Of a stretch of 33,353 nt of DNA, positions 2,327 through 11,134 are shown piece after piece. Both the position numbers and the translations under genes were made by a program. Source of the DNA: a virus; IMG/VR virus record IMGVR_UViG_3300037840_000392, positions 1 through 33,353 of that record. One strand, written 5' to 3'. The notes beneath the pieces are model-generated. The model had not been told where the DNA came from. It searched no databases and saw only the letters and a list, made by a program, of their open reading frames with translations. Numbering within the stretch: the first letter of the stretch is position 1; each line of letters opens with the position of its first letter.

Positions 2327-2342
2327 CTATTATTTTCGATGG

Positions 2343-2382
2343 GGCATTATGAGCTCTTGGTTAACTTAGTTCTCATAATGCC
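2343..2382. repeat. 11-bp inverted repeat downstream of helicase gene
   Basis: GGCATTATGAG (2343-2353) and CTCATAATGCC (2372-2382) are perfect complements around an 18-base loop that itself contains GGTTAAC. No T-run follows, so a simple intrinsic terminator is unlikely. It may be a transcript-end hairpin or part of the adjoining origin. Confidence 0.75.
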
Positions 2383-2415
2383 TCGAAACCCTTGGTACGC
2401 CTGCATTGTAAGGAA

Positions 2416-2574
2416 TTAACCTCTTGGTTAATTTTAGGTTAATTTGTGGTTAATCTCATGGTTAATTTGATTCACCGATTAACCTCTAATTAACCATTAA
2501 TTAACCACCATGGTTAACTCTCTATCTTATTGATATATATATATATATTATATAATTATATACGCGAGTTAACC
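2416..2574. other. Candidate replication origin: TTAACC/GGTTAA array with dyad symmetry and AT-rich flank
   Basis: This 300-bp gap without genes holds repeated hexamers. GGTTAA begins at 2426, 2437, 2448 and 2460; TTAACC begins at 2479, 2490 and 2501, with 11-bp steps in both triplets. The 2426/2501, 2437/2490 and 2448/2479 pairs share one centre at 2466, and an outer pair (TTAACC 2416, GGTTAA 2512) fits within half a base, giving about 100 bp of dyad symmetry. Further copies lie at 2359, 2569 and 2605. An alternating AT tract (about 2530-2560) follows, as in DNA-unwinding elements. Phased sites next to primase and helicase genes are typical of initiator-dependent origins. Origin function is inference; operator function is the main alternative. 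Confidence 0.72.
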
Positions 2575-8519: not shown

Positions 8520-8707
8520 ATTTTTTAGAAGCAGTTGCGGAATTAAAGAATGGAAAGAGAATCATTAGACCTGAATGGAAAGATATGTACATTGTTTTGT
8601 TGCCTGGTCTTAATCATCTTTGGATTATTAAGCCGATTGAATCAGGCGCGGCTAATTGGGTTACGACAGTAGAAGAGATTATGGCGGTTGATTATCAAGT
8701 GATATAA
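8516..8707 (+). CDS. Tad2/DUF2829-like protein, candidate anti-Thoeris factor
   Basis: This 63-aa protein has the outline of the DUF2829 family: MNFLEAVAELKNGKRIIRPE, a W followed by MYIVLLPG, and a C-terminal WVTTVEEIMAVDYQVI that matches the family's W..S..DMLA.DW.VV ending. The phage protein Tad2 of this family sequesters the signalling molecule of the Thoeris defence system. It is shorter than typical Tad2 because the central loop is reduced, so ligand binding is uncertain. GTG 8516 starts in a GTGA overlap with AAGGAA upstream. It ends a run of accessory genes before the portal. Confidence 0.6.
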   Translation: MNFLEAVAELKNGKRIIRPEWKDMYIVLLPGLNHLWIIKPIESGAANWVTTVEEIMAVDYQVI

Positions 8708-8708
8708 T
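8700..8708 (+). promoter_or_regulatory. Extended -10 promoter for the candidate RNA
   Basis: TGATATAAT matches the extended -10 element TGnTATAAT perfectly and lies across the end of the Tad2-like gene. A start about 7 nt downstream would fall at 8715, the first base of the closing helix of the candidate RNA. I see no good -35, which extended -10 promoters can lack. Confidence 0.5.
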
Positions 8709-8714
8709 ATTTAT

Positions 8715-8843
8715 GGCAATAGCGGCGTGGACAGTGACACGTACAAACCCTAGGGCTATAGGCCGAGGCGATGGGTTGAAATAGTCGCACTGCCTGAAAA
8801 AGTGGAAACTATAGCATATCCAGTGCAATTCTGGACTATTGCC
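8715..8843 (+). ncRNA. Candidate structured RNA (129 nt), unknown family
   Basis: The ends pair: GGCAATAG (8715-8722) with CTATTGCC (8836-8843), 8 bp. Inside are CGTG/CACG (8726-8729/8738-8741), AACCC/GGGTT (8746-8750/8773-8777), CACT/AGTG (8788-8791/8801-8804) and TCCAG/CTGGA (8819-8823/8831-8835), the last stacked on the closing helix. GCTATAG (8755-8761), in the loop of the AACCC helix, can pair with CTATAGC (8809-8815), forming a pseudoknot. GCACTG (8787-8792) with CAGTGC (8821-8826) is an alternative helix. No ORF fits, and GC content exceeds the flanks. An extended -10 promoter points at 8715. It could be a free RNA or a leader for the portal. Confidence 0.6.
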
Positions 8844-8962: not shown

Positions 8963-11134
8963 ATGGAACGCGAAACTCGCGATGTAAATACCGATAATCT
9001 TTCATCCAAAGAAATTAATGAGATGGAAGAAAGGCGAATCGCAATGCTGAATGATGCCGGAATTGATGAAGGTGACGTTCTTACTAAGGCTGCGGAAGGC
9101 TTAAATATATGGAATAGTTACTTCAATGAAAATATCGTTAGAGGCAAAGACGATGTCAACTTTGTAATACGAGATCAATGGACAGCGGTTGAAAGATCGG
9201 AATTTACTCGGTTGTTTAAACCAGCGATGACATTTAATAAGTTGTATGACGCAACCAAAAAAGTTGTAGGTGAACAAAGAAAAAATAAGCCGGATCTAAT
9301 TGTAAGGTCTCTAACTGGTAAGGCCACTCAAGAACAAATAAACCTGCGGGCAGATCTAGTACGAACGATATCTTATCAAAGCCAAAACGATTTAGTTTAC
9401 CAAACTGCATTTAAAAATGCCCTCATGATGGGTTTCGGATCTTTCCAAATTCTACTGGATTATGAATCACCACGCAGCTTTAATCGTGTTATTCGATATG
9501 GATTGATTAATGACCCAACTACTTGTTCGTGGGATGCTACAGCCACCAAGCCGCATAAAGGTGATGGTAATTATTGTTCTCGTCGATTTGTTTTCACGCG
9601 TGATGAATTCTTTGCAACATTTCCTTATGTAACTAATCCTATTTCATTCATAGATCCTTACATGATGTTGGATTTTCAGTGGACTACTCGCGATACAATT
9701 ATTGTGTGTGATGAATTTAGAAAAGAATGGTATCCATTGATAATCTTTAAGTTATCTGATGGAACTACGGCTACCGAAGATGAATGGAAAGAGCGCGAAA
9801 AGAAATTTGAAGATAATAAAGAAATAACAGAAGGATCTGTTGTTGGAGAAATTGTTAAGCGCGATATTCCTAAAATTGTTGGAAAACGTCAAACCCAAGA
9901 TTATTCAATCATGCATTACCGCATGTTAAAAGATCAAATCATTGATTTTTCTGAATGGCCTTCTCGTCAACTGCCAATACCTTTTGTTGATGGTGATAGC
10001 AATTACATTGAAGGTCGACAATACACTAAATCATTTATTCATGAGGCACGCGATGCGCAAAAGTGTGTTAACTATTTTAATTCAGAAATTGCGTCTGAGA
10101 TTAAGAATCGTCGTCGTGAGCAGTGGTTGGGCACACCTGACAATATTATTGGCTATGAACAAGATTGGAGAAATCCTGAGTTACAGATGGGTATTCTCCG
10201 AGCTAAACCTGACCCAAAAACAGGCCGAATGCCTGAAAAACAGCAACCCTGGGATTTGTCTCCTGCATTGATGGCTAATGCTCAACGTGCGACACAAGAT
10301 ATTAATGAGATTTTAGGATTTTCTGAGGCAGAGTCTTTGCAAGGCAGAGATATATCAGGGAAAGCACGGCGCGAACGAAAACTTGAAGGATCGATGTCAG
10401 CTTATGTTTTCTTTGATAACCTCAATCAAGCCATTGAACAAGGTGGTCGAGTTGTAAATGATTTGTTGCCTTATATCATAGGCGACGACGAACGTCACAT
10501 GGTTATCTCAAAGCAAGACGGTAAAACTAAATCAGTCATCATGAATCAGAAAGATAAAGATGGCATGATGATGAACCAGCTTGATAAAGGGGACTTTGAT
10601 GTTGAGATTGATACTGGTCCCTCTTTCTCAGTTCAAAAAGATATTGCATTAGAATTTTTACAACAAACATTACAAGCATTCCCACAATCATTCCCACTTA
10701 TTGCCGATCTTTGGGCTAAAAATTTAGATGTTCAGTTCATGCCGCAAATTGCAGAACGCTTTCAATCTATGGTTCCACCTGAAATTTTAGCTAAAGAAAA
10801 TGGTCAGCCGCCACCTCCACCAAAACCCGATCCACAAGCAATGATGATGCAACAAGAAATGCAAATGAAGCAGCATCAAATGCAAATTGAAGAACAAAAA
10901 ATGCAAATTGAGATGCAACAGGTTAGAGATCGTGCTGCTGAATTGCAGATAAGGCAAGAGAAACACGAGCTTGAAAAGGCTGAGCTTTTTATGAAAGCAC
11001 ATGAATTGCAAGACAAAATGGGGATGAACTCTAAAAAAGATCAATTGGAATCTCAAAAAGCAGAAATGGGATTTACGACGCATATTGCTAAACTTTATGC
11101 TGATATGCACAAGAATAGCCAAAAATCAACATAA
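8963..11134 (+). CDS. Portal protein, P22 type
   Basis: The 723-aa protein closely matches P22 portal in size (725 aa) and layout. The N-terminal region carries WNSYFNENIVRGKDDVNFV and RLFKPAMTFNKLYDATKKVV, the core carries NALMMGFGSFQILLDYES, and INEILGFSEAESLQGRDISG lies further on. The last 110 residues are a Pro stretch (QPPPPPKPDP) and then a long Met/Gln-rich coiled coil (repeats of MQMKQHQMQIEEQ type), as in the P22 barrel. Twelve copies form the vertex through which DNA is packaged and ejected. It begins right after a Shine-Dalgarno hairpin, and its stop codon touches a strong terminator. The scaffold and coat genes follow, as in P22. Confidence 0.93.
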   Translation: MERETRDVNTDNLSSKEINEMEERRIAMLNDAGIDEGDVLTKAAEGLNIWNSYFNENIVRGKDDVNFVIRDQWTAVERSEFTRLFKPAMTFNKLYDATKKVVGEQRKNKPDLIVRSLTGKATQEQINLRADLVRTISYQSQNDLVYQTAFKNALMMGFGSFQILLDYESPRSFNRVIRYGLINDPTTCSWDATATKPHKGDGNYCSRRFVFTRDEFFATFPYVTNPISFIDPYMMLDFQWTTRDTIIVCDEFRKEWYPLIIFKLSDGTTATEDEWKEREKKFEDNKEITEGSVVGEIVKRDIPKIVGKRQTQDYSIMHYRMLKDQIIDFSEWPSRQLPIPFVDGDSNYIEGRQYTKSFIHEARDAQKCVNYFNSEIASEIKNRRREQWLGTPDNIIGYEQDWRNPELQMGILRAKPDPKTGRMPEKQQPWDLSPALMANAQRATQDINEILGFSEAESLQGRDISGKARRERKLEGSMSAYVFFDNLNQAIEQGGRVVNDLLPYIIGDDERHMVISKQDGKTKSVIMNQKDKDGMMMNQLDKGDFDVEIDTGPSFSVQKDIALEFLQQTLQAFPQSFPLIADLWAKNLDVQFMPQIAERFQSMVPPEILAKENGQPPPPPKPDPQAMMMQQEMQMKQHQMQIEEQKMQIEMQQVRDRAAELQIRQEKHELEKAELFMKAHELQDKMGMNSKKDQLESQKAEMGFTTHIAKLYADMHKNSQKST

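Follow-up and report, generated by a model that had tools for sequence, protein, structure and literature searches.

A phage RNA family combining a tRNA-like scaffold with exchangeable structured inserts

Described tRNA-like RNAs and the window locus

Several described RNAs share part of their organization with the element reported here. The bacteriophage T4 RNAs C and D (species 1 and 2) are also phage-encoded, measure 139 and 119 nt and are located in a tRNA cluster; in RNA C (NC_000866, 70908-71046, minus strand), a terminal canonical T-arm, CCGGGTTCGAATCCCGG, is followed by an acceptor-like strand. We know of no explanation for what T4 RNA C and other stable tRNA-like RNAs of phages do, nor of any swapped core in RNAs C and D. 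In tmRNA, tRNA-like ends close a long pseudoknotted interior, bacterial tRNA-Sec has an 8 + 5 bp acceptor/T stack, and the phi29 packaging RNA is a small phage RNA with paired ends. The bacterial Y RNA YrlA is likewise a non-coding tRNA mimic, with a tRNA-like part which is not built from the two ends of the RNA. For its tRNA-like domain, a possible role as competitor of an anticodon nuclease has been put forward (PMC7790460).

The window analysed here is the whole 33,353-nt stretch of the IMG/VR virus record IMGVR_UViG_3300037840_000392. The RNA element occupies positions 8715-8843, between the end (8707) of a 63-codon gene encoding the small Tad2-like protein P0002 (8516-8707; PF11195, Thoeris anti-defence 2) and the start of a P22-type portal gene (8963-11134; PF16510, 4.8e-99), both on the plus strand, as is the RNA, and both given for context only. 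A TTAT leader (8711-8714) lies directly 5' of the RNA start and could serve as an RNase P leader. The acceptor-like end helix of 8 bp pairs GGCAATAG (8715-8722) with CTATTGCC (8836-8843), the latter without an encoded CCA in the window. From 5' to 3', its two strands enclose a conserved 2-nt linker, CG (8723-8724), as at tRNA positions 8-9, a D-arm-like hairpin, GCGTG-GACAGTGA-CACGT (8725-8742), a variable insert, or payload, of 75 nt (8743-8817), an A abutting the 5' side of the T-stem (8818, conservation 98%) and a covarying T-arm, TCCAG-TGCAATT-CTGGA, with G replacing U55 (8819-8835; stem 8819-8823/8831-8835). The end helix stacks flush on this T-arm (5 bp, 7-nt loop) to form a 13-bp stack. 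The best interleaved stem pair of the insert associates AACCC/GGGTT (8746-8750/8773-8777) with GCTATAG/CTATAGC (8755-8761/8809-8815).

A preliminary description of this region had proposed a new structured RNA with paired ends, a coaxial hairpin, a pseudoknot and its own promoter, and the elements it named (TGATATAAT, GGCAATAG/CTATTGCC, TCCAG/CTGGA and GCTATAG/CTATAGC) are all present where it placed them. The folding energy of the region is weak when considered alone (z = -1.64), but just 1 of 4000 shuffles of the region yields a Watson-Crick end helix of 8 bp that abuts a 5-bp T-loop hairpin without a gap. ARAGORN called only a tRNA-Thr in the window, leaving the RNA element uncalled. An antisense action on the phage's own genome was rejected, the longest complement being 11 nt against a mean of 10.8 nt in shuffled sequences.

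A covarying scaffold in phages

A portal search led to the close relative L003. Scans of IMG/VR with a 14-base 5' pattern, a T-arm pattern and a degenerate D-arm pattern, followed by a structural filter (cut-off 9, the best score in shuffled sequence being 8), defined a family of at least 156 distinct sequences in at least 138 loci, on IMG/VR contigs of mostly uncultured phages; the L280 and L305 sequences are ordinary tRNAs passed by the filter, leaving at least about 154 members. The copies share a layout of an 8-bp end helix, a 2-nt linker, a 5-bp D-like arm with the loop GACAGTGA, the insert and the T-arm. The window element conforms to this layout in the covariance model R1, of which it is one of the 50 source sequences.

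In the 50-sequence alignment, 99.1% of the cells are paired and double-sided changes affect 17 of the 18 pairs, including all 8 pairs of the end helix and 5/5 pairs of the D-stem; the covariation score reaches 0.697, against 0.175 in shuffled alignments and at most 0.107 with slid partners. Because the structural filter itself demanded pairing, the fairest test is provided by the search with the T-arm only, in which the matches were found by sequence alone and the end helix was not used: a perfect 8-nt upstream partner is present at the right distance for 62 of the 117 distinct T-arm matches listed, as compared to 1 of 117 shuffled tails. The D-stem forms 5/5 pairs in a fixed geometry in 46 of 63 cases, with many stem sequences and no D-arm filter. 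Among 55 loci outside model building, the covariance model gave 52 matches at E <= 0.001, and covariation in these independent loci is 0.661 versus 0.151 when shuffled, in an alignment fitted to the model. The conservation of the D-like and T loops is partly a product of searching with them. The structure of the scaffold is thus well supported. Covariation across relatives is decisive for the pairing of the two ends announced in the preliminary description, and the TCCAG/CTGGA hairpin that it called coaxial is stacked directly on the end helix; the check that it had suggested, a covariance model of homologues, gives the matches in independent loci cited above, and the helices covary. Neither the window RNA nor any member in the further loci scanned matches Rfam 15 at gathering score, which, together with the strong covariation, agrees with its claim of a new structured RNA outside Rfam. 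A literature search, with thin coverage of preprints and subscription papers, returned no published description. In L186 and L225, a hairpin is added within the D-like loop, GGGTTTAAGACCC in one and GGAATTATGTTCC in the other, with compensatory changes.

Model R1 scores in 47 of 49 full virus records, and eight records carry 2-5 copies, five being the highest number in one phage. A P22-type portal passes the cut-off in 21 of these 49 records and in none of the 28 others, so the RNA is spread over several phage lineages and mostly lies elsewhere than beside the portal. In the window, L003, L102, L119 and probably L006, the portal gene comes directly after the RNA. The L006 element (2329-2468, plus strand), which precedes a related portal, shows an end helix of 8 bp and the T-loop TGAAAAT; it scores weakly with the model (15 bits, E 0.028) and is a probable divergent member of the family. 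With three queries, the window RNA and two further members, BLAST retrieved no member from 50,697 phage records; with one member as query it retrieved none from 72,556 plasmids. An exact 19-base pattern matched 6 contigs among 84,980 bacterial and archaeal genomes, 4 of them being members according to the model. Two of 143 Legionellales genomes have a copy, one of them L264, whose RNA has the same length and score as those of L157 and L201 and is located on a large contig, suggesting that this copy belongs to a prophage.

The acceptor-like helix, D-arm and T-arm are joined by the linkers expected in a tRNA, and the overall layout is that of a tRNA without its anticodon region, with no gap between the T-arm and the acceptor-like strand. 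The T-loop agrees with the tRNA consensus at positions 53, 54, 56-58, 60 and 61; T-loop hairpins are also found in non-tRNA RNAs. In contrast with normal tRNAs, the family has G55 instead of U55 and lacks the usual GG of the D-loop. The discriminator is an A in 46% of the sequences and position 74 a C in 50 of 118 members. CCA stands exactly at positions 74-76 in 9 of 118 members, whereas most other offsets give about one, and NCCA is encoded in a minority. The commonest leader is exactly TTAT (30 of 118) and the base at -1 is T in 66%. A tRNA lies within 500 nt of 12 of 119 copies (random mean 5.0, maximum 10 in 500 trials), all 12 on the same strand as the tRNA; restricted to independent loci, 9 copies are near a tRNA and on its strand, against a random mean of 2.6 and a maximum of 8. 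Runs of RNA, tRNA and RNA separated by gaps of 7-20 nt occur in L099 and L319. Taken together, the tRNA layout, the 3' end, the leader and the linkage to tRNA genes make a maturation by the tRNA machinery likely. As for the promoter, the extended -10-like box TGATATAAT (8700-8708, plus strand), which shares bases with the stop codon of the preceding Tad2-like ORF, is present as previously described; its promoter role is unproven and it is not a family trait, such boxes preceding 16 of 118 members (13.6%) as compared to 11.9% expected from shuffling. A CRISPR-repeat-like sequence, GTGAGGATTGAAAC, lies two bases 5' of the RNA in L027.

Inserts exchanged as modules

The window and L003 are 93% identical upstream and 91% identical downstream of the RNA over 1.2 kb of flanks, and their scaffolds differ at 3 of 54 bases, whereas their inserts of 73-75 nt are unrelated. 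The L003 insert is instead 88% like that of L138, another phage. Inserts are also shared by the otherwise different phages L041/L066/L154/L213 and L157/L174. The inserts are therefore exchanged as modules between phages on a scaffold that is kept. Over the family, their length varies from 28 to 270 nt (median about 85), and they form 132 groups among the 156 sequences listed, 115 of which are single.

Shared inserts display compensatory changes in interleaved helices (GGGC/GCCC to GAGC/GCTC, GGTAG/CTACC to GGTGC/GCACC), and the L003/L138 pair a further one (AGGGA/TCCCT to TAGGA/TCCTA), all read off the alignments. Inserts fold better than their shuffles (mean z -0.64, p 4e-8, n=103), and in 20 of 103 the pseudoknot ranks within the top 5% (p 2e-7). 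For the last 14 nt 5' of the T-arm, a pairing of 6 bp or more is present in 62 of 101 cases, where 38 were expected. The pseudoknot of the window itself, already noticed in the preliminary description, has a true pseudoknot topology, its two helices being interleaved, but is not significant alone, as it is equalled in 12.5% of shuffles. The alternative GCACTG/CAGTGC pairing, from which a switch had been suggested, is a private feature: GCACTG is confined to 5 of 156 inserts and the switch is consequently unsupported. The preliminary reading thus holds in part; it had recognized neither the resemblance to tRNA, nor the existence of a family, nor the swapping of the core.

Pairing between the two ends of the insert is at chance level (10 cases, 9.8 expected), which argues against a tRNA with an interrupted anticodon stem; an intron within this stem was accordingly rejected, for want of a closing stem. 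A search for motifs common to the inserts gave only a weak enrichment of GAAAG/CCCTA. Among the inserts of L096, L083 and L080, some contain an extra T-arm-like hairpin of the GGTTCGATTCC type.

Candidate functions and comparison with known RNAs

With a probability of about 0.6, we interpret this family as stand-alone tRNA-mimic RNAs, matured by host tRNA enzymes, which act in trans and display an exchangeable effector insert. The gene would produce a stand-alone RNA imitating a tRNA, with the insert in place of the anticodon and variable region. RNase P would cut it at its 5' end from a longer phage transcript, and the host 3' tRNA-trimming enzymes would form its 3' end. The scaffold, with its 13-bp stack, would bring stability and tRNA-likeness rather than decoding, and the insert would be the working part, acting in trans. 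The rapid replacement of the inserts suggests an RNA effector or decoy engaged in conflict, possibly with competing phages, with the defences of the host or with host toxins that act on tRNA. This conflict role is tentative and is deduced from the diversity and the speed of exchange of the inserts, since no shared partner or conserved target was identified. It may also be conjectured, with reserve, that phages possess a general system in which a host-processed tRNA-mimic scaffold receives exchangeable structured inserts and, just as speculatively, that each insert of such a system is an inhibitor, a decoy or an antitoxin-like RNA directed against a different defence or rival, the whole being for RNA what islands of anti-defence genes are for proteins.

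No partner protein common to the phages carrying the RNA was found. The Tad2-like gene sits just upstream of the portal in the P22-portal relatives even where the RNA is elsewhere; being linked to the portal in this phage lineage and not to the RNA, it was discarded as evidence for an anti-defence island. An RtcB-type RNA ligase is encoded by the same phage (28490-29638, minus strand; PF01139, 8.5e-120) and was rejected as a partner, as it was found in just 2 of 49 other records with the RNA. An abiF RNA (RF03085, 46 bits) occurs in L025 (7662-7698, minus strand), a phage of the same group, and a weak partial abiF RNA match lies at the contig end in L018 (1-22, minus strand).

The high conservation of the scaffold but not of the inserts, the 115 of 156 listed inserts without a relative and the wide span of insert lengths would also fit an RNA whose important part is the scaffold, the insert being little more than filler. 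With its tRNA shape, such an RNA could act as a decoy or sponge, binding a host factor that recognizes tRNA (a nuclease, RNase P or the CCA enzyme), or it could be stable and inert, its loop drifting freely. Such an RNA is unlikely, given that the inserts out-fold their shuffles, keep pseudoknots through compensatory changes and recur in unrelated phages, and that the replacement of a whole insert between phages 91-93% identical is not drift. The diversity of structured inserts and the presence of several copies per phage are left unexplained if the RNA is a by-product of tRNA-like punctuation, at which RNase P would cut the mRNA before the next gene. This processing role is improbable despite the TTAT leader, the tRNA-like ends and the frequent location of the RNA right after an upstream stop codon and about 15-30 nt before a gene; the window RNA is separated from the following gene by 119 nt.

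Conserved ends flanking exchanged cores could alternatively mean that the element is not an RNA but a site of DNA recombination or a mobile cassette, whose cores could be swapped by homologous recombination between the arms. The compensatory changes in all three helices, the co-orientation with tRNA genes and the tRNA-like 3' end make this very improbable. Hardly any credit can be given to a cis-acting leader, riboswitch or packaging RNA of the portal gene: the location directly upstream of the portal in the five loci cited above (probable in L006) is its argument, whereas most of the 49 records have the RNA at a distance from any portal, 28 having no P22-type portal above cut-off, and its core is not conserved as a ligand pocket or a pRNA would be.

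Should the interpretation as tRNA-mimic RNAs with effector inserts be correct, this widespread family would show that uncultured phages mount rapidly evolving RNA payloads on a scaffold that mimics tRNA. Its natural structured inserts, more than 100 in number, constitute a ready library for tests of anti-defence activity.

According to the tests run, the RNA is neither a packaging RNA, a portal leader nor a tmRNA; for every known class considered, at least one defining test speaks against membership. The analogy with the phi29 packaging RNA offered in the preliminary description is not upheld: most copies are not next to the portal, the core shows no sequence conservation and the architecture differs. 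Unlike tmRNA, the family has a D-stem, inserts without a conserved core motif and as short as 28 nt, and no member is matched by Rfam (RF00023 and relatives) or ARAGORN as a tmRNA. The tRNA-like part is made of the RNA's own two ends, unlike that of YrlA, and a Ro-associated Y RNA was rejected, a Ro60 (TROVE) gene being present in 0 of 51 records. The 8-bp acceptor-like helix and 5-bp T-stem, the 2-nt linker, the D-like arm and the T-loop bring the family close to tRNAs and to tRNA-Sec in particular; a tRNA, however, has an anticodon arm, which the family RNA lacks, and it is called by neither ARAGORN nor Rfam. While tRNA mimicry is known, we are aware of no other RNA family that combines a tRNA scaffold with a core open to exchange. 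The T4 RNAs C and D lack the GACAGTGA arm and were rejected as members, the family model giving at most 4.5 bits in their region. By analogy, T4 RNA C is nonetheless a possible functional counterpart, and the family could provide a concrete model for stable tRNA-like phage RNAs of this kind.
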